Below are positions 2,357 through 36,721 of a DNA stretch of 36,721 nt, in pieces (position 1 is the first letter of the stretch; each line of letters starts with the position of its first letter). Under the pieces are notes generated by a model, which was not told the DNA's origin, searched no databases, and saw only the letters and a program-made list of their open reading frames with translations. The DNA is taken from positions 1 to 36,721 of the IMG/VR virus record IMGVR_UViG_3300046010_013454. One strand, 5' to 3'. A program made the translations under genes and the position numbers. Source of the stretch: a virus.

Positions 2357-2568
2357 AAGTGGGATCTTTTTGGAAGTGGGATCAAAAAAGAACTGGGATC
2401 GGGAAGTGGGATCTTTTAGGAGATCCCAGTTAATAAGTGGGATCTGGGATCTAAGTGGGATCTGGCTTATAGGCTTGCGCTATCTATGCTTGAGTGTTCT
2501 TTCGCTTTGTACTTCGATCCCACTTCTGTAAGTAACTGGGATCGAAGTGGGATCGAGTAAGTGGGATC
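2357..2568. repeat. Array of twelve AA(G/C)TGGGATC sites, candidate transposition enhancer/operator
   Basis: Copies of the ten-base word AAGTGGGATC or AACTGGGATC start at 2357, 2374, 2391, 2404, 2435, 2453, 2534, 2545 and 2559. A variant with CTGGGATC lies at 2442-2451. Inverted copies are GATCCCAGTT (2422-2431) and GATCCCACTT (2516-2525). Spacings are irregular, from 11 to 18 in the dense parts, so it is not a CRISPR. In Mu, the internal activation sequence and operators lie near the repressor gene and are bound by both MuA and the repressor. Position and clustering match that role. Every copy contains GATC. The right part overlaps the repressor's 3' coding end. Confidence 0.7.
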
Positions 2569-2817
2569 TAAATATATATCCTCTAAATTTTCTGGCATTT
2601 CGATTTCCTCGCTTACCAAGGACAAAAACATATGCCTAGCATCAGATGGCAGTGCTTTAAGTATCTTGATGAGGTTTGATGCTTTTAGGTCTCTATTGTT
2701 GTTTCGATAGCGGGAAATTGTCTCAGGATTCACTCCGCTTGCGGCTGCAATTGATTTCGCTTCTAAATCAAAGAAACGAAACACGAAATCCAATGCAGAA
2801 CCTTCACTCATAACCAT
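2467..2817 (-). CDS. Phage repressor, XRE-type helix-turn-helix
   Basis: The protein has 116 residues with a helix-turn-helix at about 18-45 (AKSIAAASGVNPETISRYRN), the lambda-Cro/XRE pattern. It is divergent from the Ner-like gene and transposase, the place of the Mu c repressor, and should hold the lysogenic state. It differs from Mu c, whose N-terminal domain resembles that of MuA. Its C-terminus is read through four of the GGGATC repeats (2516-2568), so the last 34 or so residues may be repeat-derived. ATG at 2817 or 2811 are both possible (AAGG lies just upstream). Likely binding sites are the TTGAC-N6-GTCAA palindromes at 2831 and 2921. Confidence 0.8.
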   Translation of the reverse strand: MVMSEGSALDFVFRFFDLEAKSIAAASGVNPETISRYRNNNRDLKASNLIKILKALPSDARHMFLSLVSEEIEMPENLEDIYLDPTYSIPLRSQLLTEVGSKYKAKEHSSIDSASL

Positions 2818-2976: not shown

Positions 2977-3207
2977 ATGACGATAAGTGAATTTTTAACT
3001 GAGCCGCTCTCGGAAATCGCGAAAACAACTGGCGTAAATAAAAGCCAATGGTGTCGCTACTTTAAAGGGCAGCCATTTACGACAAACACTTTAGATCGTG
3101 CTGCTCAAAAGCTGAATATGGCTCCTCATGAGTTGTTTCTTGCGATTGAGAAGCGGCGCGAACTTGCCAAAGGTGGGCGTTATGCACCTAGAAGGGTGGC
3201 AGCATGA
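2977..3207 (+). CDS. Ner/Cro-like helix-turn-helix regulator
   Basis: This 76-residue protein has a compact HTH, with LSEIAKTTGVNKSQWCRYFK at about residues 10-30, followed by helices and a basic tail (RRELAKGGRYAPRR). It is the first early gene, just before the transposase, where Mu places ner. Ner lowers early and repressor transcription once lytic growth begins. Its TGA overlaps the transposase ATG (ATGA), so translation is coupled. It is similar in size to Mu Ner (75 residues), but the fold here looks XRE-like. It could instead be an excision or activator protein. Confidence 0.75.
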   Translation: MTISEFLTEPLSEIAKTTGVNKSQWCRYFKGQPFTTNTLDRAAQKLNMAPHELFLAIEKRRELAKGGRYAPRRVAA

Positions 3208-5465
3208 GCGAATGGTTTAGCGCTTCCGAGTTGGCTGGATTGCCATCAATGCCAAAGTCCAAAAGACTTGTAAATTTGATGGATAAAACGGGCTGGATCT
3301 CTCGCCCAAAACAAGGTAGAGGGGGTGGTATTGAATACCACATTTCCTCTCTGCCTGAAGAAACAAAGGCTTTTTTGGCTGATAAGTTTGGCGATCGCGC
3401 CGAATTGTCCACAATTGTGGAGGATTTCAAACCAGCTACTGACCTTGAAGTGGTTGAACTCAATAAAGTCCAGAGGTTGGTTGATGAGCTTATTGCTGCT
3501 GACCATGTTGTTGACGGTAACAAAAACGCTGACGACAAGACTTTTGAGATGCCAGTTGAGAGCGATAAGAGTACGGCGGTAACGCTTGCTCGGCTTAAGG
3601 TTGTGCAGATGGCTCAAAATTACCTGATGGATCGTAAGGCGATTAGCCCCAAGGTTAAGAAGGTGGCTTGTTATGAAGAGTTTGCAGAGAAGGTTGAAGC
3701 GGGTGAGATCGAGCTTCCTGAGTTCGTGCGAATCGGGCTAACTACCGCTCAAGGCAAACTCAAATTATCTCGCGCTTCCCTCACTAATTGGGAAGGGCAA
3801 AGCCTTAAAGAACTAGCCCCAAAGCATCAAGGCAAAGAATCTTTTTTTGATTTGCGCCCTGACTATGCGATCGCTGCTGAAGCTGTATCGCGTGAGTTCG
3901 GGGCGGCTGCGAAGATTTTGCAACATGCCTTTGAGAGCGGATTGATTAAGGAGCATTTCGGACTTGAGGAATGCCCAACCTATAGCCAGATCGTTTGCTG
4001 GCTGAAGAAGCAAGAAGAGACTAACAAACAGCGTCAACGTGCCTTTAGGACTGGCGACAAGTCGGTTTTACTGCCTGCACTTGGCTCCTATTCCAGAGGT
4101 TTATTACCTAACCAGAAATGGGAGATCGACAGTACCAAAGCCGATCTTGCTACTAAGAAAGAAAATGTGGTTTGGCTTTCGAGTCCCTTTGGTGAAGCAC
4201 CTGTAAGGGCTTCGCTAGTGGCTTGCATTGATGTTGCTACTCGCATGGTGAAAGTGCTGGTAAGACCAACATCTAATAGTGAGGCTCTGTGCCTTGTGTT
4301 GGCTGAGTGTGTGAAGGATTGGGGCTTACCTAAGTTAGTGAAGACTGACAACGGGAAAGACTACATCTCGAAGCATGTGAAGGGCTTCCTAACGGCGATG
4401 GGCATTGAGCAGAAATGCTGTGTTGTTCGCCAGCCTTGGGAGAAGCCACACATTGAAAGATTCATGCGAACTTTGCAACATTCGGCTGAGTGGCAAATGC
4501 TGCCTTGGAGTACTGGGCATAGCGTTGCAATGCAACAGGCTCTACGCAAGCGGCGCGATGGTGACTTGGTTTTACCTTGGACGATCGCTGAGTTTCAAGG
4601 CTGGATCGATAAGTGGGTGGATAGTTACCACTCGCGAGTCCATGAAGGCTTAGGGATATCACCGATGGCAAGGCTGGCAAGCTTTCGGGCTGATGGGTTT
4701 GTGGCTTTGATGCCTAAGAATCTCGAAGAAACACTGCTATTCGCAATGATGCGAGAGGACACTGTAACCGTGAATAAAGGAGGGATTAGCTATCAGGGGC
4801 GGCTTTATGTGGCTACGGAATTGATTTCTCACTTTGGTGAGAAGTTGGCAATCCGTATCGATCCTGATGATGTAAATCAGATTTTGGTGTATTCAACCAC
4901 CAATCTGAGCAAAGCTCAATTTATCTGCAAAGCCAAGTGGGATTTGGCTCTCACTACTGAAGAGCAAGCAAGGATCGCTAGTGCGAAACCTGTGGCAAAT
5001 CAGTTGCTGCAAGAGCGAGAAAAGGCTGTTAAGGATGGCGTTCGCAAAATCAAGAAGGAGATTGAGAAACATCCTGAAAGGTTGATTAGAGGTGGTGGTG
5101 TTGCGGCGCTCAAATCCGTACAGGAAGTTGAGTTAACCAATGCCAATCTCATCAAGCAAATTGATGCGGCGGCAAATATGCCTGTGGTGAATACTGATGC
5201 ACCTGAGATGCAAGCTAAGCGCCAAGAATGGCTTGATATGCAAGCTAAGAAGGATGCTGAGAAGCCTGTGGTTGAAGAGGTTCGGAGTGGTCGCGATTGG
5301 TTGCGTATTTGGCAAATGAGCGATCGCCCAATTAACGAGACTGAATGGCTTTTGCAAACCATCGATCTTGGTGGCTATGGCGGATTTGTAGCGATGGTGG
5401 TGAATCTGCCACTTGAGCAAATGCGCGAAATGCTAAATCAGGAATTACGCGATCGGGTGGCGTGA
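3204..5465 (+). CDS. muA: MuA-type DDE transposase
   Basis: This 753-residue protein (Mu A has 663) catalyses strand cleavage and transfer for integration and replicative transposition. The N-terminal winged helix (about 5-62, FSASELAGLPSMP onward) is the type that binds the internal enhancer. A central helical region (about 120-290) should bind the ends. The RNase H-like core has D309 (WEIDSTKAD), D382 (VKTDNGKDY) and E418 (KPHIERF), which gives an exact D-x35-E spacing. A beta-barrel-like region follows (about 510-600), then a charged tail expected to contact the MuB-like ATPase and ClpX. The start overlaps the Ner-like stop. All catalytic residues are present, so the enzyme looks active. 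Confidence 0.96.
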   Translation: MSEWFSASELAGLPSMPKSKRLVNLMDKTGWISRPKQGRGGGIEYHISSLPEETKAFLADKFGDRAELSTIVEDFKPATDLEVVELNKVQRLVDELIAADHVVDGNKNADDKTFEMPVESDKSTAVTLARLKVVQMAQNYLMDRKAISPKVKKVACYEEFAEKVEAGEIELPEFVRIGLTTAQGKLKLSRASLTNWEGQSLKELAPKHQGKESFFDLRPDYAIAAEAVSREFGAAAKILQHAFESGLIKEHFGLEECPTYSQIVCWLKKQEETNKQRQRAFRTGDKSVLLPALGSYSRGLLPNQKWEIDSTKADLATKKENVVWLSSPFGEAPVRASLVACIDVATRMVKVLVRPTSNSEALCLVLAECVKDWGLPKLVKTDNGKDYISKHVKGFLTAMGIEQKCCVVRQPWEKPHIERFMRTLQHSAEWQMLPWSTGHSVAMQQALRKRRDGDLVLPWTIAEFQGWIDKWVDSYHSRVHEGLGISPMARLASFRADGFVALMPKNLEETLLFAMMREDTVTVNKGGISYQGRLYVATELISHFGEKLAIRIDPDDVNQILVYSTTNLSKAQFICKAKWDLALTTEEQARIASAKPVANQLLQEREKAVKDGVRKIKKEIEKHPERLIRGGGVAALKSVQEVELTNANLIKQIDAAANMPVVNTDAPEMQAKRQEWLDMQAKKDAEKPVVEEVRSGRDWLRIWQMSDRPINETEWLLQTIDLGGYGGFVAMVVNLPLEQMREMLNQELRDRVA

Positions 5466-5553: not shown

Positions 5554-6234
5554 ATGAAAACTAATGTCGCGATGACTTTCAATTTGCTGGAGTTCTTGGG
5601 GGCGATCGATACCCTCAAGGATCGCAAAGAACGGATTTTAGTTGCATCTGGTAGAGCTGGATTTGGTAAGACCACGATGATGGTTTTTGCGGCGAATCGG
5701 CATGGTGGTGCAGTGATTACTGCAAACGCTTCTTGGACTGTGAAATGGATGCTGAGTGATATTTGCACCCAGCTAAGCATCCAGCGCTCTGAATCGGTGC
5801 AAAAGATGTATGAAAGCATCGTTGCTCAACTCAAAGTCAGTCAAAAAACTTTGTTTCTGGATGAAGCAAATCTCTTGGTGGAAGGTCGTGATTTTAAATC
5901 GATCTTGACCATCTTGAGCATGATTTATCGCATCCATGATGACGCTGAGATCGGCGTTGTATTCCTTGGTCTAGAGCGCTTTCCTCAATACATTGAGGCG
6001 AGAGCAAAGCAATCCGATAGTATTCGCGCCTTCGATCAGCGTTGTGTTCGCAAGATTGCCTTTAGGGACTGTGGGTTTGAGGATGCGCGATTGATTGCGG
6101 ATGCAAGGTTGGAAGTGCCAATTTCTGATGAGCAATTATCGGCAATTTGCGCCAAGACTGAGGGCAATATTCGCAACCTCATCACCCATTTGACCGATTT
6201 CGAGCGTGTTGAAAAGTCAAAAATCAGGAAATAG
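5554..6234 (+). CDS. muB: MuB-type AAA+ target-capture ATPase
   Basis: The 226-residue ATPase has Walker A GRAGFGKTT (residues 33-41) and Walker B TLFLDEA (99-105). The core resembles the AAA_22-like fold of MuB and TniB/TnsC proteins. Its role would be to bind target DNA with ATP, deliver it to the transposase and give target immunity. Mu B has 312 residues with an N-terminal HTH domain that is missing here, so this is a short form closer to TniB/IstB-like relatives. The downstream winged-helix genes could supply DNA-binding functions. It lies in the operon just after the transposase, separated by 88 bases with a hairpin. Confidence 0.92.
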   Translation: MKTNVAMTFNLLEFLGAIDTLKDRKERILVASGRAGFGKTTMMVFAANRHGGAVITANASWTVKWMLSDICTQLSIQRSESVQKMYESIVAQLKVSQKTLFLDEANLLVEGRDFKSILTILSMIYRIHDDAEIGVVFLGLERFPQYIEARAKQSDSIRAFDQRCVRKIAFRDCGFEDARLIADARLEVPISDEQLSAICAKTEGNIRNLITHLTDFERVEKSKIRK

Positions 6235-6236
6235 CT

Positions 6237-6842
6237 ATGGCCCTAAAACAGTTTGAGAGACAAAAGGTTTGGTGTGCGATGCGATCGCTGAAAAGTTTCT
6301 CGGTATCGCAGGTGGTAGAGCGCTGTAATCAGGTTCCTGAATCGGTGAAGATCTCTGACCTCGATGCTACGGAAACTAGGCACTATATCTGGGCTTTGCG
6401 CCGCTATGGGTATTTGACCTGGCAAAAGCAGGATAAGGACAACACCGAATTTACTCTGATTCGGGATACGGGCGGTAATGCGCCTTCCACTCATGCGAGT
6501 GGCTTGAAGGATCACAACATTGGGGCGGTTGATGACGCTTCTCAGAGGATTTGGAATGCTATCTGCATTTTGGCTTCTTGGGATTTGCCTCAATTGGCTA
6601 GTGTTTCCCAATCAAACCTAGGTACAGCATCTCGCTATACACGTCTTTTAGTCGGGTCTGCGTATGCGAGATGTGAGCCAAGGAATGTGCGGATCGTGGG
6701 AACGCGCAATCGTTATCAATTATTACTCAAGACTGGGGCGATCGCGCCTTTGTTCCTTGAGGATGGCTCGGTATTTGATTCAAATCTTTTTCTGCAAGAG
6801 CTTTGGGCTTTATCTAAGAAATCTAAGAGGGTAAGAGCATGA
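6237..6842 (+). CDS. Tandem winged-helix protein, early operon
   Basis: The 201-residue protein seems to have two winged-helix units. The first is about residues 5-75, with a recognition helix followed by YGYLTWQKQDKDNTEFTLIR. The second is about 100-170, ending in VGTRNRYQLL. The wing pattern is a helix, then a Gly, then two strands ending in Y.L or F.L. It begins two bases after the ATPase stop, so the two are coupled. Since the ATPase lacks MuB's HTH domain, this protein might partner it, but that is speculation. The family is not recognised. Confidence 0.6.
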   Translation: MALKQFERQKVWCAMRSLKSFSVSQVVERCNQVPESVKISDLDATETRHYIWALRRYGYLTWQKQDKDNTEFTLIRDTGGNAPSTHASGLKDHNIGAVDDASQRIWNAICILASWDLPQLASVSQSNLGTASRYTRLLVGSAYARCEPRNVRIVGTRNRYQLLLKTGAIAPLFLEDGSVFDSNLFLQELWALSKKSKRVRA

Positions 6843-16616: not shown

Positions 16617-17384
16617 GAATTTTAGTAAGGACTGAATGGCATTATCGATCCTCTTACCCCAGGAACGCGGTAAGCGCTCCTTAATCCTAGCCAGATTGAC
16701 AATCCTCTGCTCGGCGTTACTTGATGGCGCGGCATTAAAGCCAGTATCAGGCTCGATAATTGCTTGCTTAGTCTGCCCATTACCATCCACATAGGGCAAA
16801 GTATCACCAAGGGCAATTTGCTCCACATCTAGCCCCTTTTTATCAAGCTGACGTTGGGATAGAGATACCATGCTGCATCCACAATTAAATCCATTGGGCG
16901 GATAAATGCTGCTCACGATGGGATCGTCTTTGCGGAATACCTTTCCATCTAAAGCAACGTGTGCAGGTCTAGGGGCGCGAGAATCTGAGTGCAGATATTG
17001 CAAATAGGGTTGCAACTTCATGACATCACGATCAAACTGCTGATCGTGCCTTCCTGCGGCGTAGGATTGGCGTAAATTCTGGGTGAGGATGAGCCTTGCT
17101 CTCCAATCTGCGCCGCCCTTGATATCCCAGCCATACTGCTCTGAGAAATTGGCAATCTGCGCCGCAAATTCGGGCGAGTCGTAGGGTGTGCCGTTTTGAA
17201 TGGCGCGAGTTACCGATTTTTGCAGATCGCTGACCAGAGTTGCATCAACTGCGCCCGCACTCCAAAACGCGGCATTGGCTTCTGAGTCTTTGTAATCGTT
17301 CCAGCGCTCAGATGGCAAAGCGATCCTATTCTCAAGGTAGGAAATTGCTTCATCAAATGGCGCGGATTTGTAATCAAATGCCAT
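16608..17384 (-). CDS. Mu F-like head morphogenesis protein (gp30)
   Basis: The 258-residue protein matches the phage Mu F / minor head family. Its diagnostic block is RPAHVALDGKVFRKDDP, then YPPNGFNCGCSM, the PPNG.xCxC motif (residues about 150-190). An ARLILTQNLRQSYAAGRH helix precedes it. F proteins attach to the portal and are ejected or stabilise the capsid opening. At 258 residues it is shorter than Mu F (about 440), lacking a C-terminal extension. Its start overlaps the portal gene's end by 11 bases. Confidence 0.92.
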   Translation of the reverse strand: MAFDYKSAPFDEAISYLENRIALPSERWNDYKDSEANAAFWSAGAVDATLVSDLQKSVTRAIQNGTPYDSPEFAAQIANFSEQYGWDIKGGADWRARLILTQNLRQSYAAGRHDQQFDRDVMKLQPYLQYLHSDSRAPRPAHVALDGKVFRKDDPIVSSIYPPNGFNCGCSMVSLSQRQLDKKGLDVEQIALGDTLPYVDGNGQTKQAIIEPDTGFNAAPSSNAEQRIVNLARIKERLPRSWGKRIDNAIQSLLKFFS

Positions 17385-19194
17385 CTGCCTCCGCCTCCTC
17401 TATCCCTGCAAGATTCGCTACGCGATCCGCCTGTGCATATTTGGTGGCTAGCTCTTGGCGACTGCGCTCCATGCCTTCAAATATCCCTGCAAATCGCTCT
17501 TGAAACTCCACGGCATCGGCGCTCTCTGCATAGGCGAGATTTATCCGCTCTTGCCACTTGGCGGCATGGGCGGCGTAAGCATCTATAAGCTCTGGATTAG
17601 AGGCGATTTGCTCTACTGTGTCGGGTTCTTTGGGGCGATCGGCAAAATCATAAATCTCACCACTGCGGATGCTTCGGCTTCGCTCAGCAACCGTCTCTGA
17701 GAATTGAGCGTTAGGGGCGTTATTTTGGCTTTGACCTTGTGTTGGTATCTGCGGAGGTGGTGTCGTGTCCTGTGGCGCTAAATTTTGCGGTTGTGGTTGA
17801 TTGCGGATTGGTGCGATGATCGCTGTTGCTGCTTCCAAGGTTACGCCCATCGTATTTACCATGATCTGAAGCAAGCTGTCAGGATTCATTTGTCCTGTGC
17901 TGGCGGCGGTAATCATTGCAGTTAGCGATTGAAGCTGTGCGCCATTGAGTGTTGATTTATTAGCGTCGTATTCGTAGCCATCGCCATAGATCTCTGTGAA
18001 TTTCTCAGGTGTTAGCCTTCCGCCCAAATCAATGATTTCTTTATCGCGCTTGACTCTGGTATCAATGTCCTTTTCAGGCTCAGTGCGATATCGGATATAG
18101 GGCGCGTTTGCTTTGGGGAAATTATAGAAGGTGATTGGTACGGATACATTCTGATAAAAGCTTTCGCTGAAGAAGTCGCCATCAGCAACAACAATATCGT
18201 TCGCAACGTTCTCATGGGTTTCGGCTGTGCCTGCCCATGCACCGTTCTCAGTGGTTCCTGATTGCCCCAAAATCAGGAGCGTGATCGCGTGATCGCACCG
18301 TTCCTGTAAGCCTGCAAAATCGGCTGTGCCTCTAGTGGTTTGCAGTAATTCGGCTGCAAAGCCTTGAGCTAGGGAAATTGAGCGCCCCTCTCCAAGTGCT
18401 TGGGCTAATACCTTAGCTTTGTCTTTTTCTTCTTTGAGGGCATTTGCAGGATATTCTACTTTGGCGCTTGGGCGTGAGAAATTGTCTAGGAAGTTTAGCT
18501 CATGCCTTGTCGCGCCTCTTTTAAAGAGGGTCAGCCAGTAAAGGATTTGGTCTAGCCCTTCACCATAGGGATTGTCGCTATTGTCGCCACCGCATCGCAT
18601 TACCCATGCGCGAGATTCGTGGATCGGTTCACCTTCGTACATGTTGCCAAGGGTGATTAATCTTGGCTTGCCTTCTTTGTCGAATTTGATGCGATCGCGT
18701 CGCCTTACCTTGATGGCTCCTTTGCTGATATCCAGATAAATCAAGCCATCAGCTTTCTTAGTGAGCATTTTCTCGCCAAGACTAAACCCGTAATGCCTGC
18801 AAAACATCATCTTGGTGGTGATGTCATCCATCGGGATTTTGTTGATATTAAATTGCGCGGCATCTTTGTCTATCGATGGCTTTGGCATCTGGACTCGCCA
18901 CCAGTCTGCGGCGGCTTGGTCAATTGCTGAATCAGATGCGGCAATTACTTCAATAGGAAATCTAATCAGTCTGCTAAATCTTTGAAAGTAACAGGCTGAT
19001 ACATGGGGATCTTTGCGGACTTTTGTATAAATATCAAGGTATTCAGCACCATTGCCACCATGCTGATCGAGTACGGGATCTTGTTTGTCGAGTAGGGGCA
19101 GTAGATAGCCGCGAGTGATGTCGTTATCTACGCCTGCTATTTCTGCATCCAGTAGCGGAGTTTTCTGCTCTTTGGTCAAAAAGTCATCAGCCAT
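17374..19194 (-). CDS. Portal protein, Mu gp29-like (DUF935)
   Basis: The 606-residue protein has typical DUF935 portal features: an N-terminal part DIYTKVRKDPHVSACYFQR, RDRIKFDKEGKPRLI, NPYGEGLDQILYWLTLFKRG, and LILGQSGTTENGAWAGTAE with downstream helices. It should form the dodecameric ring for DNA entry. The C-terminal 180 residues are Gln/Pro-rich then helical, the long tail that interacts with F. It lies between terminase and F in Mu order. The gap to terminase is 3 bases. Confidence 0.93.
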   Translation of the reverse strand: MADDFLTKEQKTPLLDAEIAGVDNDITRGYLLPLLDKQDPVLDQHGGNGAEYLDIYTKVRKDPHVSACYFQRFSRLIRFPIEVIAASDSAIDQAAADWWRVQMPKPSIDKDAAQFNINKIPMDDITTKMMFCRHYGFSLGEKMLTKKADGLIYLDISKGAIKVRRRDRIKFDKEGKPRLITLGNMYEGEPIHESRAWVMRCGGDNSDNPYGEGLDQILYWLTLFKRGATRHELNFLDNFSRPSAKVEYPANALKEEKDKAKVLAQALGEGRSISLAQGFAAELLQTTRGTADFAGLQERCDHAITLLILGQSGTTENGAWAGTAETHENVANDIVVADGDFFSESFYQNVSVPITFYNFPKANAPYIRYRTEPEKDIDTRVKRDKEIIDLGGRLTPEKFTEIYGDGYEYDANKSTLNGAQLQSLTAMITAASTGQMNPDSLLQIMVNTMGVTLEAATAIIAPIRNQPQPQNLAPQDTTPPPQIPTQGQSQNNAPNAQFSETVAERSRSIRSGEIYDFADRPKEPDTVEQIASNPELIDAYAAHAAKWQERINLAYAESADAVEFQERFAGIFEGMERSRQELATKYAQADRVANLAGIEEAEADGI

Positions 19195-19197
19195 TTT

Positions 19198-20544
19198 CTA
19201 AAATCCTCTCAGGTTGTAGTTGCCGTAATCTGCGATCGCCTTGTCTTCGCGTTCTTCGCCAAGCTCAAACTCGAAGGGTGCAAAACCTTCATCGGCGGCA
19301 TGGAGGGCAAGGGCAAGCGCCCAAAAGTAGTCACCGTGACCCGTTGCTTCTGAGCGCTCGGCATCAAAGCGCGAGTTGCCTGATTCGGTGACGGTTTTTT
19401 TGATGGAGTGCAGAGAGTCGCGAATGTCGGATTCTGAGGGGATACGAACTAAGCGATCCTCAAATTTCTGCTTGGTAAGGATGGCTAAATCCTGCTTTAC
19501 TGCCCCTGTAAAGAGAACGCCTTCAACGTAGTACTTGCCGTAGGTATCTTGCAGTTGCTCCACAATCACCTCGCCCATGCCTGTTTGGTCTACGCAGATG
19601 CGGCGGGGGTTGTAGAGCTTGATGAGTCGCTCTAGTTCTAGTCTTTGCTCTTTGAAGGTGTTTCCCTTCATTCTGATGATTTGACGTGTTACCATCACGT
19701 CGCCAACTTTCTTAAGCGCCCACAGGATTGATAGATCTCGCCTTCTTGCAATATCCCATCCGATGTAAGTGGGGTAGCTATCTAGGGTAGTTTCGCCTGA
19801 TTCTTCAAGATCTGCTTCGCAAGTGGTGATCAGTTCGTAGGATAGCCATGCGCTAGCTTCATCAAGCCATTTAAGTTCGTATTCCTGCGCCCATCCATCC
19901 TCATCGGCTAGGGCTTTGCGCTCAAATTCGATATTGAAGGGTAAGCCTTGTTTTACGGCTTGGAAGATGTCAATTTTGTGGACACTCCAAACCTTGTCTT
20001 GATCGTCTTCGACAATGCGATAAAATCTGCCGCCTTTGTGCTTGCCAGTGCTTGAAATGATCATGCGCCTTGTACCGCGCAATACTGGGAAAGCGGCTCT
20101 CCATAGCTCCTCTTGGGTGGCTGTGGGTAAAATATCAAATTCATCCAAATAAACATTGGATGTGTAGCCCCGAATTACGTCAGGAACTGGGGGAAGGGAT
20201 AGGATTCGGGAGCCTTGGGGAAGTGTAATTTCGCGCCCCTTGACGGTTTTTTGTAGATTCTCAGACCATAGCTCTAGCTCAACGATTTCACTTGCTGCCA
20301 TTGAGTATGCCTTGCAGTGGCGTTTTGCCTCTGCGAGATTTTCTAATGCTTGCCTATCCCCACGCGAGATCATGATCCATTGGGTACGTCCGCCTTTGGC
20401 TTCAGTTTCGTGGCAATCGTCAACAATTTCAAGGGTTGTGGTGAAGGTTTTGCGGCAGCCACGCGCCCAAAAAAGAGCCTTAAATCTTGAGCGATCTAGG
20501 AAGCTTTTTTGCTGATATGGGAGTAAGGCGATCGCGCTTTGCAT
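19198..20544 (-). CDS. Terminase large subunit, Mu gp28-like
   Basis: The 448-residue protein is the packaging motor and nuclease. The ATPase half has ARGCRKT at 27-33 in the Walker A place and NVYLDEFD (130-137) as Walker B. The nuclease half has D264 (YIGWDIARRRD), D319 (CVDQTGMGE) and the GHGDYFWALALA block (402-413). Walker A is degenerate: G-x4-GKS is replaced by GCRKT, as in some Mu-like terminases that keep an Arg/Lys finger. Order small terminase, large terminase, portal is Mu-like, but on the minus strand. Confidence 0.93.
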   Translation of the reverse strand: MQSAIALLPYQQKSFLDRSRFKALFWARGCRKTFTTTLEIVDDCHETEAKGGRTQWIMISRGDRQALENLAEAKRHCKAYSMAASEIVELELWSENLQKTVKGREITLPQGSRILSLPPVPDVIRGYTSNVYLDEFDILPTATQEELWRAAFPVLRGTRRMIISSTGKHKGGRFYRIVEDDQDKVWSVHKIDIFQAVKQGLPFNIEFERKALADEDGWAQEYELKWLDEASAWLSYELITTCEADLEESGETTLDSYPTYIGWDIARRRDLSILWALKKVGDVMVTRQIIRMKGNTFKEQRLELERLIKLYNPRRICVDQTGMGEVIVEQLQDTYGKYYVEGVLFTGAVKQDLAILTKQKFEDRLVRIPSESDIRDSLHSIKKTVTESGNSRFDAERSEATGHGDYFWALALALHAADEGFAPFEFELGEEREDKAIADYGNYNLRGF

Positions 20545-20733
20545 TTAGTTATCTACAAACTCTTGGGGACAAAATGGATTGCAAATCAAGGCTTTTGGGC
20601 GCGAAGTGCTAGAGATTAGCTCTACTTCGATAAATTGCGGTTTTGATGGGCTTGAATTAAGCCTGCTACCGCAAAGAATGCAGTAATTTTTAGGCGATCG
20701 CTTGATAGAAAAGGGTGGAGCATTTGCAGTCAA
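20545..20733 (-). CDS. Possible small zinc-finger protein between terminase genes
   Basis: In the 217-base space between the terminase genes a minus frame encodes KNYCILCGSRLNSSPSKPQF, then ALICNPFCPQEFVDN. This is C-x2-C and C-x3-C, a plausible zinc site. No ATG exists; TTG 20733 is assumed. The frame stays open further back into the small terminase gene. The stop is directly before the large terminase ATG (TAAATG), which supports coupling. Because the start is weak and the family unknown, it stays tentative; a Com-like regulator is one idea. Confidence 0.4.
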   Translation of the reverse strand: MTANAPPFSIKRSPKNYCILCGSRLNSSPSKPQFIEVELISSTSRPKALICNPFCPQEFVDN

Positions 20734-20761
20734 GATTTTTGTAAACAATTTGTGGACAAAG

Positions 20762-21313
20762 CTAAGACACAATTCCGTAAATCTCTTCGCGAATGACTCG
20801 CAAAGTCTCTTGATCGATGCCAGTACGAGGGGCGATGTCTGCGAATTTAGCCTCAATCTTGGACTTGACCTCATCACGATACTTGGAAATTGTGATGTCT
20901 GAGGTTGAGGCTCTGCTTAGTGCTAAGCCGATCTGATTGTAGAGATTGGCTTTTTGCTTTACCGATAGCTCTTCATCACTAAGCCCTCTCAAGTCCATCT
21001 GAAGCTGAAAGATCGAGTCACCCAATAACCTTAAGTTTGCCTGTGAAGTCGTTTTATCCTCATCAGGAAAGGCTTCCATCAGATAGGCGCTAGCTTCCTG
21101 TGACTCCCTGATTTCATCTAGGAGTTTCTTTAGTTTTTGGGCTTGCCTGTGCAGAGTAGATCGAGAGAATTGCACCTCAAACCCAGATGATTCAAGGATG
21201 CTATTGATTTCTTCGGTGAGTCCGTCAAAATCGGCAAAGTTGCGATCCTTGAATAGCTTGTGGATTTGGGTTTTGATTGCCTCTGGCAAGGTGTCGAATA
21301 GCGATCGCTTCAT
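20762..21313 (-). CDS. Small terminase subunit, Mu gp27-like (DUF3486)
   Basis: The 183-residue helical protein fits the DUF3486 pattern: FDTLPEAIKTQIHKLFKDRN, GLTEEINSILESSGFEVQFS then RSTLHRQAQKLKKLL, an HTH-like N-terminus. A long helical middle (LGDSIFQLQMDLRGLSDEEL) follows. It should recognise phage DNA and hand it to the large subunit for headful packaging. Mu recognises its left-end pac site, so the analogous site here would lie within the first hundreds of bases. It overlaps the gp26-like gene by 4 bases. Confidence 0.88.
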   Translation of the reverse strand: MKRSLFDTLPEAIKTQIHKLFKDRNFADFDGLTEEINSILESSGFEVQFSRSTLHRQAQKLKKLLDEIRESQEASAYLMEAFPDEDKTTSQANLRLLGDSIFQLQMDLRGLSDEELSVKQKANLYNQIGLALSRASTSDITISKYRDEVKSKIEAKFADIAPRTGIDQETLRVIREEIYGIVS

Positions 21314-21630
21314 GGCTTAAACCATTCTTGGGGAGGTCTTTCGATGCTTGTAGGACAGTTATGATCGGGGCTGTATTCCACCAAATCAATTGATTTATGA
21401 GTTCTGGTCGCGTGCTTAATCCCTGAAGGCAGATCTTCAATATTGCAGTATCCCAAATCTCTTAGATAGAAAAGCTGTTCTCTGATTTCGGCATTTGAAA
21501 GCCCGTACTTCATCGAATCGCAAATAGACTTAAAGGTGTTTTCGTTAGCACCCGTTTCGCCCCAATTGTAAAGGCAAAGGATTATGGCATAACGAATCTC
21601 CCTAAGCTTGATGTTCTTTAATTGGTTCAC
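21310..21630 (-). CDS. Mu gp26-like winged-helix protein
   Basis: The 106-residue protein lies between the membrane coiled-coil protein (gp25-like) and the small terminase, as Mu gp26 does. It has a winged helix (about 10-70: REIRYAIILCLYNWGETGAN, NAEIREQLFYLRDLGYCNIE) and a Pro-rich end. The role is unknown even in Mu. It overlaps both neighbours by four bases. Confidence 0.7.
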   Translation of the reverse strand: MNQLKNIKLREIRYAIILCLYNWGETGANENTFKSICDSMKYGLSNAEIREQLFYLRDLGYCNIEDLPSGIKHATRTHKSIDLVEYSPDHNCPTSIERPPQEWFKP

Positions 21631-22058
21631 GACGACTTGCCCCTTAAAATTATTGCCATGATTTCATCAAGTCTCTTATGCAGAGAGTCCAGCTTCAAAT
21701 CTGAAGTTGTTTGATGTTTTAGGTAATCCTCTCGATCTACGTACTTATTGCTGAGTTCGATAAATCTGCGATCTATTTCTGCTGCGCGAAAATCTGCGGT
21801 TCTTTGATGATTGTGAAGAGTGTCTTCAAGCCCTTTAATTTCTTTCTTTAGGTTAGAAATCTCAGTTTTTAGCTCTTTGTTTGTGTCTTCGTACTGCCTT
21901 ATAGAGCGTGATACAAACCATTTGACAACGCCAATAGTTGCGCCGCCAACTAGGACGGCTGAACCAATTAGGATTTGCTCAACGCTAATCGATATCTGTC
22001 CTGATTGCGACGGGTTGGGCTGTGCTGCGGCAATTTGTGCAATGTAATGATTTTTCAC
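21627..22058 (-). CDS. Mu gp25-like (DUF2730) membrane coiled-coil protein
   Basis: The 143-residue protein has one membrane segment (about 28-50: ILIGSAVLVGGATIGVVKWF) and a coiled coil behind it (about 58-95: NKELKTEISNLKKEIKGLED). DUF2730 proteins have this layout and stand just upstream of the small terminase in Mu-like phages. It is the first gene of the inverted packaging operon. A role in lysis or membrane-associated assembly is possible; the family function is not known. Confidence 0.75.
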   Translation of the reverse strand: MKNHYIAQIAAAQPNPSQSGQISISVEQILIGSAVLVGGATIGVVKWFVSRSIRQYEDTNKELKTEISNLKKEIKGLEDTLHNHQRTADFRAAEIDRRFIELSNKYVDREDYLKHQTTSDLKLDSLHKRLDEIMAIILRGKSS

Positions 22059-22110
22059 ATAGAGTCACTAGTACGTTTTTGATTATTAAATACCTTGAAA
22101 GCCTTTGCTA

Positions 22111-22132
22111 GTAGGGTGTGTAATCACCCTAC
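22111..22132. promoter_or_regulatory. Inverted repeat in the divergent late control region
   Basis: GTAGGGTG-TGTAAT-CACCCTAC has perfect eight-base arms and a six-base centre. It lies between the two late operons that leave this 124-base region in opposite directions (start 22058 minus, 22183 plus). Mor/C proteins bind dyad sites near late promoters, so it is the best candidate activator site. A leader hairpin is the alternative. Confidence 0.6.
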
Positions 22133-22182
22133 ACAACAGTTTAAAAGAGAGATTTAATAAACGGATTATTGAATCTCTGGCT

Positions 22183-23247
22183 ATGAAAACCCTACAAATT
22201 TTTAAGGCAGGAAAACATGTAAGCGCTAGTGGCGAAACCTTGGCTTTTAGCGAAGCCGAACTTGTGGCGAGTGCAAAAGCCTATGATCCTAAGCTTCATG
22301 AAGCTCCCATAGTAATCGGGCATCCTAAGCATGATGATCCTGCCTATGGCTGGATCGGTGGTGTGAGGGTTGAGGGTGATAGTTATTTTGCTGACCCTAA
22401 TCAAGTCGATTTAGAATTCGCTGAAGCTGTGAAGGCTGGTAAATACAAAAAGATTTCTGCCAGCTTCTATGCTCCTGATAGCCCCAGCAACCCAGTTCAA
22501 GGCGTTTACTATCTGCGCCATGTGGGTTTCCTTGGTGCGATGCCTCCTGCCGTTAAGGGTATGAAGCCTGTGAATTTTGCAGAGGCTGAAGAAGGCGTTT
22601 TGGAATTTGGCGAAATCGATTTCATGGATTGGGATGACATGACGATCGCTGGTCTATTCTCCAATTTGCGGGAATGGATGATCTCTAAATTCAATTTGGA
22701 GACAGCCGATCAAGTGATTCCTATTTATGCGATCGATGGGTTGAAAATGTCGGCGGCTCAGGATGACATTAAGCCTGAAATGCCGATGGATTATAGCGAA
22801 GGTGATAAACCAGTGACGATTGATTTTGCAGAAAAAGAAGCGGCTCTAGCTGCGCGTGAGGCGGATATCGCCAAGCGTGAGCAAGCGCTCAAAGAGCATG
22901 AGTTTGCTGAATGGTTTGATGGGATGGTTGGTGCTGGAAAGGCATACCCCCATGAAAAAGATAAGACTGTGGCGGCTTTGATGTCGTTGTCTAGCATTTC
23001 TCAGCCGATTGAATTCTCAGAAGGTGGCGAAACTAAGTCTCAAACCCTACTTGAGACTTACAAGGCAAGCTTTGTAAATCGCCCTAAATTGATTGAATTT
23101 AACGAGTTGCCAACTGGTGACACATCGCTCCCTAGCGACCCTGAAGAATATGCATTGCTGATTCGCCAAAGGGTTGCTAAGGCAAAGGCTGAAGGGCGCG
23201 ATATCAGCTTTGCGGAAGCCCAAAATCTTGTGGAGGCTGGTAAATAA
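22183..23247 (+). CDS. Mu I-like head maturation protease/scaffold
   Basis: ATG 22183 is used rather than a TTG at 22105, which would cover the control region. The 354-residue protein has a protease half (VIGHPKHDDPAYGWI at about 44-58; VKAGKYKKISASF ending near 95, the latter holding the probable catalytic Ser 92). A C-terminal coiled-coil scaffold half (AALAAREADIAKREQALKEH) follows. Mu I cleaves and leaves the prohead, with an internal start giving the scaffold Z. An in-frame ATG (MDYSEGD, about residue 201) could serve for that. It starts the plus-strand late operon. Confidence 0.85.
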   Translation: MKTLQIFKAGKHVSASGETLAFSEAELVASAKAYDPKLHEAPIVIGHPKHDDPAYGWIGGVRVEGDSYFADPNQVDLEFAEAVKAGKYKKISASFYAPDSPSNPVQGVYYLRHVGFLGAMPPAVKGMKPVNFAEAEEGVLEFGEIDFMDWDDMTIAGLFSNLREWMISKFNLETADQVIPIYAIDGLKMSAAQDDIKPEMPMDYSEGDKPVTIDFAEKEAALAAREADIAKREQALKEHEFAEWFDGMVGAGKAYPHEKDKTVAALMSLSSISQPIEFSEGGETKSQTLLETYKASFVNRPKLIEFNELPTGDTSLPSDPEEYALLIRQRVAKAKAEGRDISFAEAQNLVEAGK

Positions 23248-24014
23248 TGTTCGGACTTACTCGCGGATTAATGAAAGAGGCAACGGTGGAAACCAGTGCG
23301 ATCGGGCATGGCTTGATCGTCCGAATGGGGACTACAGATGACCTCGTAACACTTGCCACATCTTCAACTGATAGCCCTGTTGGGATTTCCTATGTTGAGG
23401 GTAATCCAACTACAGCATCCACTGCTGTTGGTGACGTAATCACCGTACAAATGACTCGGATTGCAGAGGTTCGCTATGGCGGCACTGTCACTCGTGGTCA
23501 AAACCTCACGGCTAACTCGGTTGGACGTGCGATCGCAGTCACCTCAAATTCTGGTGTACAGACCATTGGTAAAGCGCTCACATCGGGCGTTGCTGGCGAC
23601 TTTGGCTATGTATTACTCAATATCTCCAATCAAGTATCTACCGCACCGATTCGCACTACCACTGTGTCTACCCTTGCTACGGCTGGTGTAGAGACTTACA
23701 CGGCTGCTCAATTGCTTGGCGGGCTAATCCTCCGAGATCCTAATGGCGCAGGTCGCAATGATGTCACTCCTACGGCGGCTTTGTTGGTGGCTGCGATTCC
23801 AGGGGCGGCGGTTGGACATAGCTTTGAGTTCACGATCCGAAACACTGCGGATGCTGCGGAAACCATTACCGTTACGGCGGGGGCTGGTGTGACGCTCTCA
23901 GGCACGATGACGATCGCGTCTACAGGCACACGCCGATTCCTTGCGGTATTGACCAATGTTGGTGCTGGAACTGAAGCGGTAACTATCTACTCGATAGGAA
24001 CTTTCGTTCACTAG
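23247..24014 (+). CDS. Capsid decoration/cement protein (DUF2190-like) with extra C-terminal domain
   Basis: The 255-residue protein has a DUF2190-like N-terminus of about 115 residues (VGISYVEGNPTTAST, GGTVTRGQNLTANSVGRAIA), a beta-tulip cement fold. The C-terminal domain (from about 140: AQLLGGLILRDPNGAGR onward) is a beta-rich module rich in Thr and Ala that probably decorates the capsid surface. It lies between protease and major capsid as typical for decoration genes. Its ATG overlaps the protease stop. Confidence 0.72.
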   Translation: MFGLTRGLMKEATVETSAIGHGLIVRMGTTDDLVTLATSSTDSPVGISYVEGNPTTASTAVGDVITVQMTRIAEVRYGGTVTRGQNLTANSVGRAIAVTSNSGVQTIGKALTSGVAGDFGYVLLNISNQVSTAPIRTTTVSTLATAGVETYTAAQLLGGLILRDPNGAGRNDVTPTAALLVAAIPGAAVGHSFEFTIRNTADAAETITVTAGAGVTLSGTMTIASTGTRRFLAVLTNVGAGTEAVTIYSIGTFVH

Positions 24015-24071
24015 ATTTGAGCTAAATGCTCTAAGTCGCAAAATTTTCTTTTTACTCGCAGGTGATAGCTA

Positions 24072-25013
24072 GTGGCTCCACAAAGTACCAAATTTCCAAT
24101 CCATCCAAGGCTAACAGCCTTGGTGATTGCCTATGAGAACGAGGGGTTTATTGCTGAAGAAGTCAGCCCTCGTTTTAATGTCGATACTGAATCCTTCAAA
24201 TGGTACAAGGTCGATCCATCAAATACCTTTAATAAGGAAGATGATACGATCGGCAACAATGGCGATTTCAATGAGATTCGCGTCTTTGGCGAAGAAGAAT
24301 CTAGCTCTACTAGAGATAGAGGACTTGCCGAGGTTTTGCAAAACAAGAAGCAAGGAACTGATATTCCTTACCAAAGGCAGCAACGGGCGGCTCTTACTCT
24401 TGTTAAGAAAGTTGCTTTGAACCGTGAAATTCGGGTTGCGAATCAGCTAACTACTGCGGCAAATTACGTCAACAATGTCACGATTTCGACTCCTACGGAA
24501 AAGTTTGACGATTACACCAATTCCAAGCCCATCCTTAGAATGCGTAAGGCTTTGGATGTGCCGTTAATCCGCCCAAACATTGTCATTCTGCCTCGCCAAG
24601 TTGCTACCGTTTTGCGAAGCCATCCAGAGGCGATTACGGGCGTTACAAATGATTCTCGGCAAGAAAATGGCGTGGTTTCACTCCAAGGGCTTGCAGATCT
24701 TTTGGAAGTTGAGCGAGTTCTTATCGCTGGTCCACGAGTCAACACATCAAATAAAGGTCAATCGGGAAGCTTTAATCGCATTTGGGGAAATCATATCTCC
24801 ATGATTTACATTGATCGATCTATTGATCCTCTTGAAGGTGGTGTCACCTTTGCGGCGACGGCTGAATATGAATCTCGCGTTGCAAAAACTGTGATGCTTG
24901 AGGATAAAGGGCTTCGTGGTTCGATGAAGGTGATGGTTGGTGAGTCTGTGGTTGAGATCTTGCCATCCAATGGATTGGCAGGTTACTTGATTCGCGACGT
25001 GCTTACGACTTAA
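24072..25013 (+). CDS. Major capsid protein, Mu T-like position
   Basis: The start is GTG 24072. The 313 residues match an HK97-fold major head protein: DIPYQRQQRAALTLVKKVAL with an alpha-helical spine. PNIVILPRQVATVLRSHPEA and VERVLIAGPRVNTS form the A-domain strands. IDRSIDPLEGGVTFAATAEY follows. It is placed directly after protease and cement genes. Mu T has a similar length (305). It probably forms a T=7 icosahedron with its neighbours. Confidence 0.88.
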   Translation: MAPQSTKFPIHPRLTALVIAYENEGFIAEEVSPRFNVDTESFKWYKVDPSNTFNKEDDTIGNNGDFNEIRVFGEEESSSTRDRGLAEVLQNKKQGTDIPYQRQQRAALTLVKKVALNREIRVANQLTTAANYVNNVTISTPTEKFDDYTNSKPILRMRKALDVPLIRPNIVILPRQVATVLRSHPEAITGVTNDSRQENGVVSLQGLADLLEVERVLIAGPRVNTSNKGQSGSFNRIWGNHISMIYIDRSIDPLEGGVTFAATAEYESRVAKTVMLEDKGLRGSMKVMVGESVVEILPSNGLAGYLIRDVLTT

Positions 25014-25070
25014 TCCCTGATTTCCCTTGATTTAGCCAGCATTCTAAGCAAATTACTCATTTAAAAATAA

Positions 25071-25361
25071 ATGGAACCTACAACCCTAAAAGTTAGGTGC
25101 TTGCACCCTGTCCACTATGGCACTGAGCATCCTAGAGGTGCTGAGATTGAATTGCCAGTAAAAACGGCTAATGATCTAGCCCAACACAAGATCGTTGAGA
25201 TTTTGTCCACAATTGTGGAGTCTGTGGAAATTGTTGCGGAGGTGAAAGGTGAATCAGTACCAGATCCAGCGCCGCAAGAAACTCAGGCAGAGGCGGAAGA
25301 AGAAGCGCCAAAGGCTGTTAAAAAAACTAGCAAGAGAAGGATTGATTCTGACGATGAATAA
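25071..25361 (+). CDS. Small head protein, hypothetical
   Basis: The 96-residue protein has a beta N-terminal half (LKVRCLHPVHYGTEHPRG) and a long acidic-basic tail (QAEAEEEAPKAVKKTSKRR). The position after the capsid gene fits small FI-like or connector-region proteins. Its end overlaps the HU gene start by 8 bases. TTGTCCACAATTGTGGA occurs within (near 25204) as in the transposase gene near 3407, probably by chance. Confidence 0.6.
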   Translation: MEPTTLKVRCLHPVHYGTEHPRGAEIELPVKTANDLAQHKIVEILSTIVESVEIVAEVKGESVPDPAPQETQAEAEEEAPKAVKKTSKRRIDSDDE

Positions 25362-25641
25362 AGGTCAACTGATTGACACGATCGCAGCGCAGATCGAGGC
25401 TCCAATCACCAAGAAACAAATCGAAACCATTGTGTCAGCTACTTTTGATCTAATTCAGACGGCTGTTGCATTTGGTGACAAGGTGACTTTGGTTGGGTTT
25501 GGATCTTGGGAAGTGCGCGATCGCGATGAACGCAAAGGCAGAAATCCCCAAACTGGCGAAGAAATGACCATCCCTGCTACTAAGGCGGTTAAGTTTAGCG
25601 CTGGTAAGGCTCTCAAAGACTTGGTAAACGGTGACAGCTAA
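25354..25641 (+). CDS. HU/IHF-family DNA-binding protein
   Basis: ATG 25354 (MNKGQLIDTIAAQIEA) gives a 95-residue protein of normal HU length. The signature GFGSWEVRDRDERKGRNPQT (48-67) includes the intercalating proline (65) and Arg-rich arms; GKALKDLVN closes it. HU bends DNA, and Mu transposition needs HU at the left end. A phage copy within the structural operon is unusual. It may condense DNA in the head or support the transpososome late in infection. Confidence 0.93.
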   Translation: MNKGQLIDTIAAQIEAPITKKQIETIVSATFDLIQTAVAFGDKVTLVGFGSWEVRDRDERKGRNPQTGEEMTIPATKAVKFSAGKALKDLVNGDS

Positions 25642-26087
25642 TGACTTACGCGACGCAACAGGACTTTATTGATGCTTTTGGTGAGCGTGAGGTAATCATG
25701 CTCACTAACCTCTATGCACCGACAGCAACGGCGATTAATACCGCCAAGCTGACTCAGTGCCAAGAGGATGCCAAGGCTTTGATAGATGGCATGATTTCCA
25801 CTTGTGCAACTGTTGCGGCGCAAATGCCCTTTGCTGTCGTTCCTCCCTTGCTGCGTACCTTTGAGCTTGATATCTGTCGCTACAAGATGGATAGCGTGCA
25901 GTCCCGTGAGGATGTGCGGAAGCGGTACGAAGATGCGATGAAGCAACTCTTGCTGATTGGTCAGTGCAAGATGAGCCTTGGCTTGTCGGGCGCTGACCCT
26001 GAAGTTGCCATTTCTACTAATGTTTTGGATGGTGCGGTGGGTACGAGAACTAGTTACTTTGGAGATTGCACCCTCAATGGCTACTAA
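25641..26087 (+). CDS. Mu gp36-like head-tail connector (DUF1320)
   Basis: The 148-residue protein starts MTYATQQDFIDAFGEREVIM, the usual beginning of DUF1320 proteins. It continues with a helical bundle containing LRTFELDICRYKMDSVQSRE and RYEDAMKQLLLIGQCKMSLG. These form adaptor rings under the portal. Order HU, gp36, gp37 matches the Mu connector region except for HU. TAATG overlap with the HU gene. Confidence 0.88.
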   Translation: MTYATQQDFIDAFGEREVIMLTNLYAPTATAINTAKLTQCQEDAKALIDGMISTCATVAAQMPFAVVPPLLRTFELDICRYKMDSVQSREDVRKRYEDAMKQLLLIGQCKMSLGLSGADPEVAISTNVLDGAVGTRTSYFGDCTLNGY

Positions 26088-26499
26088 TCTGCAATTGCTG
26101 GAAGATGATTTGATTGCGAGGGTTACGCCCACTTGCGCTGAGAATGGCGTGAGTGTGGCTAAGCTCAATGCTTACGAGCTTGGTCAACCGATGCAATCAG
26201 GGCAAGCTTTTATTAATTACAGTGGTGTTTCGCCTTCTGAGGTTTTGTCCTTTCAGGGGCAAGTGATTAGCACTTTCCGATTTGATTTTGTGGTTCGCTA
26301 TGCGAATCTCAGTACTCACGATCAAGCCTATCCATTGTTGGGCGCGGTTAAGGATCGCTTTCGGGATTATCAACCATTTGGGCGGCTTTGCGTGAAGCCT
26401 ATGCGCTTGATTCGGGAGAAGCCGCCCACAATTCCTCAGATGCTGGATGGCTTTTGGATCTATATCCAAGAATTTGAATTTGATTTACTAGAGGTTTAG
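26077..26499 (+). CDS. Mu gp37-like (DUF1834) neck/tail-completion protein
   Basis: ATG 26077 is selected; the open frame reaches back further but inside the preceding gene. The 140-residue protein (LEDDLIARVTPTCAENGVSV to WIYIQEFEFDLLEV) matches the gp37 pattern with a final beta hairpin. It should complete the connector or terminate the tail. The 11-base overlap with gp36 supports the short start. Confidence 0.8.
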   Translation: MATNLQLLEDDLIARVTPTCAENGVSVAKLNAYELGQPMQSGQAFINYSGVSPSEVLSFQGQVISTFRFDFVVRYANLSTHDQAYPLLGAVKDRFRDYQPFGRLCVKPMRLIREKPPTIPQMLDGFWIYIQEFEFDLLEV

Positions 26500-26502
26500 A
26501 GA

Positions 26503-27519
26503 ATGGGTGTTTTAAATGCGCCACAGTTAAGGAATCACGTACCGCTTTTAGGTCGTGGAACGGGTGTACAGATAGCCTTATTGCCTAAAGGTATTCGGGT
26601 TAAGCCTGTTGATCAGTTGCTTTACATTGGCGGCTTTCTTGGCACGGCTAAAGTCGTTGATGTGACTGCTGATGATAGCTATGTCAATATGGTTGCTGGC
26701 AATACTTACACGGTAGTTGCAGAGGCTACGGATAGCCCCAAATCAATTGCTTATAAATTGATTGATTTGATTAATGCTGAAACTGCAATCCATGGATGCA
26801 CGGCTCAAAATCCTCGTTTGGTTACGGGCGATGATTGGATTTACGATGTTTATAATCCCGTTGAAACCTTTACTCTCGCTAATACTGGGACCACCACTGT
26901 TGGCGATATTGTGATTGTGGCGACGGCTGGTAACACCACTGCGATCGCAAAGGGTGCGACTTCAATCACCATTTTGAAGGGATTGGAAGGCGCGATCCAG
27001 AAAGGGCAATTCATGCAAGCTGTTGATAAAGATGGCACTGAATATCTTTTGCAACTTACAGCAAATGCGGCTGTGGCGGCGACCTCGTTAAGCGTTGCGG
27101 CTCTGGATGAAGCGATTCCTGCTGGTTCTCAGATTGGCTATCCTGTTGAATTCTTTGATCGCACAACGGCTGACTCTAACGAAACTGCGGCTACTGCGGA
27201 ATTTACCACCTTTAATAGTGGTGGTAAGACTGATGGGGTCGTGACTAGCACGGCTACTGAAGGGAGTCTAGGCGGTAACTTCTTTGAACGTTGTCCAGGG
27301 GCTTCTACTGCTGAATATGCTTCTGAGAATGGGCTGGAAGTTTGGCTGAAATTCCTTGATCCAGAATACAGAGATGGTTGGTCACGTCGCACTCAAGAGG
27401 GTGCAGCGGTTATCACAAGCCGTAATAAGGCTAGACCCGTAGAAGGGTTTGTTTCTAACGAGCTTTCCTACAAGTTCTACGGTCAAATTCTGAATACACC
27501 AGCTAAGCCACTGTACTAA
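26503..27519 (+). CDS. Major tail (tube) protein candidate
   Basis: This 338-residue protein lies after the connector genes and before the tail chaperone, the place of the major tail protein. It is beta-rich with Thr/Ala loops (AGNTTAIAKGATSITILKGL) and an immunoglobulin-like middle, ending with RPVEGFVSNELSYKFYGQIL. It lacks sheath signatures, so a non-contractile tail is likely. The insertion at about 120-220 may be an exposed decoration domain. Family assignment rests on position and composition. Confidence 0.65.
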   Translation: MGVLNAPQLRNHVPLLGRGTGVQIALLPKGIRVKPVDQLLYIGGFLGTAKVVDVTADDSYVNMVAGNTYTVVAEATDSPKSIAYKLIDLINAETAIHGCTAQNPRLVTGDDWIYDVYNPVETFTLANTGTTTVGDIVIVATAGNTTAIAKGATSITILKGLEGAIQKGQFMQAVDKDGTEYLLQLTANAAVAATSLSVAALDEAIPAGSQIGYPVEFFDRTTADSNETAATAEFTTFNSGGKTDGVVTSTATEGSLGGNFFERCPGASTAEYASENGLEVWLKFLDPEYRDGWSRRTQEGAAVITSRNKARPVEGFVSNELSYKFYGQILNTPAKPLY

Positions 27520-27728
27520 TGAAATTTAGAGCGCTGCAAGCTAAGGATGTTTGGTTGGGGGCTGTTACTCAAGACGGTGACAGCTTCTCAATTGGCATTT
27601 TGGTGCTTAGGGCGCAAAAAGGCTTAGTCAGGCTCAAGGATGTGGATAGCGATCGCACTGTTGCGATCGACCTCTCTCAAATAAAAATCGGTACTTCTTA
27701 CAAGGTTTTCATAAATGCTGCCCTTTGA
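27519..27728 (+). CDS. Small beta-rich tail protein
   Basis: The 69-residue protein (MKFRALQAKDVWLGAVTQDG, VRLKDVDSDRTVAI) appears as a small beta barrel. ATG overlaps the tube gene stop; its end overlaps the chaperone gene by 14 bases. Role unknown; such mini genes between tube and chaperone may help tail assembly. Confidence 0.6.
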   Translation: MKFRALQAKDVWLGAVTQDGDSFSIGILVLRAQKGLVRLKDVDSDRTVAIDLSQIKIGTSYKVFINAAL

Positions 27729-36644: not shown

Positions 36645-36719
36645 CATTTTTAGATCTAGATCTAAAAATTGAGATCCAGAATTGAAAATTTAAGATCCAG
36701 ATTCAAAACTAAAACTACA
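36645..36719. repeat. Right end with candidate transposase-binding sites
   Basis: CATTTTTAGATCTAG (36645-36659) repeats the left word at 211-225 exactly. It lies in a 22-base perfect palindrome (36647-36668) built of two AGATCT cores. AATTGAGATC (36668-36677) and AATTGAAAAT (36680-36689) also match left-end words, and AGATCCAGA occurs twice. TACA at 36716-36719 is the suggested terminus. Mu's right end likewise packs three sites within about 80 bases. No other feature is visible. Confidence 0.65.
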
Positions 36720-36721
36720 CA

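Follow-up and report, generated by a model that had tools for sequence, protein, structure and literature searches.

We identified an array of twelve near-identical short words beside and inside the candidate repressor gene of a Mu-like transposable phage, and conclude that it is probably a transpositional enhancer (internal activation sequence), read by the Ialpha domain of the transposase, that has been amplified, displaced and uncoupled from the repressor operators. The word is most likely a docking site for the transposase tip, because it covaries with the DNA-contacting parts of that tip across related phages. From these sequence comparisons we infer both physical binding by Ialpha and enhancer function.

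The window, as we call the whole stretch of 36,721 nucleotides analyzed, encodes a Mu A-type transposase followed by an AAA ATPase (Table 1). Its early genes are ordered repressor (-), ner-like HTH (+) and transposase (+), as in Mu-like phages; the match of the HTH gene at the ner position is weak. The record appears to extend almost from one phage end to the other, with TGTA... on the left (1-20) and TGTG..., in reverse complement, on the right (36700-36721). GATC-containing repeated motifs unlike the array word occur at both ends and are candidate transposase end sites. A cyanobacterial host is most likely, since the HIP1 word GCGATCGC, typical of cyanobacteria, is abundant (53 copies in the 36.7 kb record). 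A viral contig (IMGVR_UViG_3300033978_000698, L019) is 99% identical to window positions 16636-29191; the part compared does not include the array.

Table 1. Features of the early region (window positions unless another locus is named).
Feature	Position	Strand	Remarks
Array	2357..2568		11 AA(G/C)TGGGATC (AASTGGGATC) words and one CTGGGATC; proposed Ialpha-binding transpositional enhancer
AAGTGGGATC	2357..2366	+	
AAGTGGGATC	2374..2383	+	
AACTGGGATC	2391..2400	+	
AAGTGGGATC	2404..2413	+	
AACTGGGATC	2422..2431	-	
AAGTGGGATC	2435..2444	+	
CTGGGATC	2444..2451	+	Truncated twelfth copy, abuts preceding copy
AAGTGGGATC	2453..2462	+	
AAGTGGGATC	2516..2525	-	Within repressor ORF
AACTGGGATC	2534..2543	+	Within repressor ORF
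AAGTGGGATC	2545..2554	+	Within repressor ORF
AAGTGGGATC	2559..2568	+	Within repressor ORF
Candidate repressor, 116 aa, HTH_3	2467..2817	-	PF01381, E 8e-6
Dyad TTGACTAATAAGTCAA	2831..2846		Candidate operator in repressor-ner gap; word unlike array
Dyad TTGACTTACCCGTCAA	2921..2936		Candidate operator in repressor-ner gap
Small HTH gene at ner position, 76 aa	2977..3207	+	PF13443, E 0.04, under Pfam's gathering score
Mu A-type transposase, 753 aa	3204..5465	+	PF02316, PF00665, PF09299
Ialpha-like winged-helix domain, ~residues 1-49	3204..3350	+	Recognition helix 20-29, wing 33-46; 1TNS match, AlphaFold model
AAA ATPase (B)	5554..6234		AAA_22
ORF between array and repressor in relatives, convergent with repressor	L022 6269-7027; L174 2571-3269; L175 2757-3404; L243 9829-10572; L236 6229-6900 (reverse strand)		

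The preliminary description had reported a twelve-copy array with some copies inverted and four inside the coding end of the repressor, and this was borne out: there are eleven exact 10-letter words (eight AAGTGGGATC and three AACTGGGATC; nine on the plus and two on the minus strand) together with the truncated CTGGGATC, a cluster that shuffled sequences never match. The window contains 16 copies of the core TGGGATC versus 4.1 expected in shuffles (0 of 100 shuffles reach 16), and 12 of these copies fall in 2360-2568, a stretch with a chance expectation of about 0.02. Outside the array the whole window holds a single exact 10-letter word, at 9937, and the reversed control pattern has zero matches in the window. 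When the 2.6 kb upstream of the transposase was shuffled preserving dinucleotides, no 8-letter word equalled the cluster in any of 100 shuffles. The start-to-start spacing is irregular (17, 17, 13, 31, 9, 9 ... 11, 14), so that the helical phasing that had been proposed is not seen in the window, though a strict 11-bp period is found in many relatives. The array is a group of clustered short sites inside the phage, as expected of a Mu-type enhancer, and its words are not end sites, since no copy with one mismatch or fewer is present at the phage ends.

The array had also been placed at the position of the Mu enhancer and operators, but it lies on the 3' side of the repressor, whereas in Mu and most non-cyanobacterial relatives the sites are on the 5' side, between repressor and ner. 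In Mu, the enhancer sites are used by the repressor as well as by the transposase, and the repressor can block the enhancer by occupying it; the title of a 1989 paper by Mizuuchi and Mizuuchi, cited in PMC3362531, reportedly points to such sharing of enhancer and operator. The Mu enhancer and the window array are both clusters of short sites near a transposable-phage repressor, with Ialpha as the proposed reader in the window. The Mu enhancer, however, is placed right of the repressor, between c and ner, where it overlaps the operators (PMC5977238 for its location; in the Mu annotation c is at 339-929, with the early promoter and the Ner sites at 991-1101), whereas the window array, amplified to about twelve nearly identical copies, lies 3' of an HTH_3 repressor and apart from other dyads. 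These dyads form a pair of their own in the repressor-ner gap (TTGACTNNNNNGTCAA-type, 90 bp apart in 2818-2976), and the gap holds no array-like word even when two mismatches are allowed. The four array copies inside the repressor ORF lie in its C-terminal tail, which the array encodes and which is without counterpart in the related repressors of loci L020 and L170, which end before or at the edge of their own arrays. Sharing of sites between repressor and transposase, as in Mu, is unlikely for the window, because its repressor is of the HTH_3 type and not a Mu-type winged helix, and because words track the transposase helix over the repressor.

At its N-terminus the window transposase shows a match to MuA Ialpha (1TNS, E 1e-8) and a weaker one to the DNA-binding domain of the Mu repressor. 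Ialpha is the Mu domain that binds the transpositional enhancer (PMC3362531). An AlphaFold model built from 20 relatives (mean pLDDT 79) contains the elements E4-6, H7-10, H20-29, E33-35 and E43-46, and its best PDB match is likewise 1TNS. Together with the covariation of the word with helix and wing described below, this fold match makes the winged helix of the transposase, suggested as reader in the preliminary description, the best-supported candidate.

Transposase alignments were scanned against viral contigs and genomes, yielding 158 distinct Mu-like N-termini, and the 152 loci with enough upstream sequence were tested for word clusters in the 2.6 kb preceding the transposase; hosts of metagenome contigs were deduced from composition and kinship. 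A significant clustered word was found in 39 of the 152 loci (each at p<=0.02 in shuffles, where chance would give about 3), and the words constitute one family of about 10-11 bp, AA[C/G]TnnGAnn. Some of the detected words (L138, L289, L032) may be spurious. Repeat detection missed the sites of Mu itself because they are too degenerate. Cyanobacterial examples are AASTGGGATC in the window, AACATGATCG in L020, TAACTCGGACG in L023 and L182, TAAGTTGGACG in L037, L146 and L172, TAAGTCGGGCG in L170, TAAGTCGGAAC plus TAAGTTTGAAC in L022, TAAGTCTGAAC in L175, TAACTCCGAAC in L027 and CTTGCGGATCG in L100; non-cyanobacterial words include AACTCCGAAC in L295, AACTCGGAAG in L302, AACTCTGACG in L304, AACTCTGACC in L072 and AATCGGAACT in L112. 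A larger 'array' at the far left of L021 (CAGCCCAA) was excluded from the count, as it looks like an in-frame protein repeat; the true array of that locus is composed of AAGTTTGA.

The sites occur in two arrangements. Most non-cyanobacterial phages have four or five, which extend across the repressor's 5' end and the space before ner, and several (L072, L285, L302, L304, L112, L250, L035) have a recurring -,+,-,+ layout near 0, 20, 30-50 and 122 bp, suggestive of a conserved enhancer architecture; in L064, exceptionally, the sites are on the 3' side. These clusters have the motif family, the proposed reader and the tracking of word with helix in common with the window, and differ from it in their number of sites, their layout over about 122 bp and their straddling of the repressor 5' end. 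The array-bearing cyanobacterial phages have about 4 to 17 copies, mostly in tandem, often as perfect 11-bp repeats, and on the 3' side of the repressor. These copy numbers and the runs of up to 16 perfect tandem units in relatives fit the earlier suggestion of growth by repeat amplification. In one cyanobacterial group, an ORF of about 220-250 aa, convergent with the repressor, separates it from the array (Table 1). About six cyanobacterial loci, from a transposase subgroup with 'NVxRKAK' helices, had no array in the clustered-word test.

A single-protein scan with the window transposase found no close relatives, tblastn with the repressor gave no match in phages, and the plasmids searched likewise gave none. 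Across viral contigs AASTGGGATC occurred only as isolated pairs and never as an array. One such pair, of AAGTGGGATC, is in the Mu-like phage L325 (9453-9482), on the 3' side of a Mu-type winged-helix repressor; the transposase helix of L325 is unlike that of the window. The literature searched, which covered few subscription journals, included work on the Mu enhancer and no description of arrays like this in cyanobacterial Mu-like phages.

Word similarity, taken as the best ungapped match of frequency matrices on both strands, was compared with protein similarity across 33 phages by Mantel tests. The word follows the recognition helix when identity in the rest of the transposase is controlled for (partial r 0.31, p 0.0002), a covariation of moderate strength. 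When about 600 nine-residue segments were scanned without guidance, the only peaks were near residues 19-25 and 36-45, with maxima of 0.33 at the start of the recognition helix (residues 20-24) and 0.37 in the wing (36-42), against a family-wise 95% permutation limit of 0.306; elsewhere in the transposase the mean is -0.04 (sd 0.085, maximum 0.20). No phage was found with the same word as the window plus a matching helix. Evidence for the window's own pairing is indirect and comes from partial matches: the GATC end of its word recurs in L035 (helix SRSVNLM, word AATCGGATC) and L100 (RRNVFLK, CGGATC).

The words might instead be operators for the repressor, or for a Ner-like protein, serving lysogeny control, with the transposase link secondary. 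The array does adjoin and enter the repressor gene, and word and repressor similarity are weakly correlated (r 0.13, p 0.01). Words of an operator array should follow the repressor, however, and the correlation with the helix given the repressor is still 0.29 (p 0.0005), a control that is approximate because the automatic repressor picks are wrong for several loci. The word-helix signal also persists in 460 phage pairs without detectable repressor homology (r 0.27). Repressor types without detectable homology go with one motif family and even with identical words, as in L023/L182 and in L027/L295; the latter two have AACTCCGAAC in common and similar helices (TERGIQK/TERGVQK), with about 16% identity in the remainder of the transposase and unrelated repressors. 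As the array is moreover on the 3' side, away from the promoters, and separate dyads occupy the repressor-ner gap, we regard an operator role as unlikely.

The association held outside the training set, where words were predicted from helix neighbors in 114 loci (p 0.0002; mean z 0.75 for matched pairs vs -0.01 for others). L285, whose helix is identical to that of L072 (TESGIIRLA), has four sites resembling AACTCTGACC, arranged as in L072, and in the cultured phage MP22 (TVQGINSRA) the repressor-ner gap contains sites like AACTTGAA, at 824-973, as predicted from L241. A natural swap is seen between L037 and L170, whose homology spans the array with its flank (77%) and resumes from about residue 43 of the transposase onward (86%), the breakpoint lying just past the wing. 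Between these homologous parts the repressor, the small gene and the Ialpha domain are unrelated and have been replaced, and the array units have changed in place, from AAGTTGGACG to AAGTCGGGCG. The exchange of the repressor together with the Ialpha domain makes this case compatible with operators as well.

Another explanation is that the array is a neutral or host-type short tandem repeat, common in cyanobacterial intergenic DNA, that came to lie in a prophage by chance. Like the short tandemly repeated repetitive sequences of cyanobacteria, the phage arrays consist of short near-perfect tandem units in intergenic DNA (several cyanobacterial phages have perfect ones of 7, 11 or 12 bp), and G004 carries a second array of the L104 heptamer elsewhere in its genome. 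Unlike them, the phage arrays are confined to the prophage in most hosts checked, have a conserved position and carry a transposase-linked word. Across 17 cyanobacterial genomes the word of G310 stays near control level, the departures being two arrays in G310, of which the first lies in the prophage and the second beside a decayed copy of the same type of phage; in G001, 14 of 23 word matches belong to the prophage array and the remainder are at control level, and in G003 all five tandem-heptamer matches are inside the prophage. Dispersal over the chromosome, the mark of host short tandem repeats, was thus not seen in the relatives with host genomes, and these counts reject the host-repeat reading for three hosts of relatives, the L104 heptamer excepted. 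Given also the conserved position and motif family and the covariation of the word with DNA-contact residues of the transposase, we hold a host repeat to be very improbable.

The decayed copy (L172, G310:C2:1306000-1325900) has lost the repressor, the small gene and most of the transposase, and sixteen perfect tandem TAAGTTGGACG units on its reverse strand (~6216-6400) abut the 3' remnant of the transposase gene. In L243/L171 (G386), two successive transposase N-terminal domains with differing recognition helices (TARGVTQKG and TIQNVRKKA; 11294-12986 of L243) are followed by an insertion-like ORF that seemingly interrupts the transposase.

Ialpha-type sites kept for another purpose (autoregulation of the transposase, its titration by decoy sites in the lysogen, or self-integration immunity) would suit a copy number above the four or five sites of relatives and the displacement of cyanobacterial arrays from promoters, but seem very improbable, and an enhancer origin is favored, because in non-cyanobacterial relatives sites of this motif family are retained at the Mu enhancer position in the recurring four-site layout.

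Under the transpositional-enhancer interpretation, every AASTGGGATC word would serve as one site at which the transposase encoded by the phage itself binds through Ialpha, its N-terminal winged-helix domain. Cyanobacterial phages of this kind would have amplified the enhancer from the usual four or five sites into an array and shifted it to the repressor's 3' side, clear of the repressor-ner operators. On the model of Mu, transposase protomers would be held on the array through Ialpha while their Ibeta-gamma domains grip both phage ends, and this holding would catalyze assembly of the transpososome. We further propose, as somewhat more likely than not, a code across the Mu family in which the enhancer word is set by the wing together with a few residues where the Ialpha recognition helix begins, and a history in which cyanobacterial phages detached the enhancer from their immunity operators and expanded it into homogenizing arrays that are rewritten in place upon Ialpha exchange. 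Under such a code, -RG[IV]- helices would go with words ending in GAAC, -RR- with GACG and -ES[GA]- with CTGAC.

If the enhancer has been displaced, the repressor would no longer be able to block it by occupancy, unlike in Mu. Knowledge of the Mu enhancer comes chiefly from a single phage, in which it is entangled with repressor operators; the arrays would offer natural enhancers apart from operators, in dozens of versions, each with a transposase of differing DNA-reading residues. The enhancer role, its dependence on copy number and the Ialpha recognition code would thereby become directly testable by helix swaps, and the rule relating word to helix would allow enhancer sites to be predicted in uncharacterized transposable phages. 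The array would also be a clear case of co-evolution between a protein and its DNA sites in which the array stays homogeneous.
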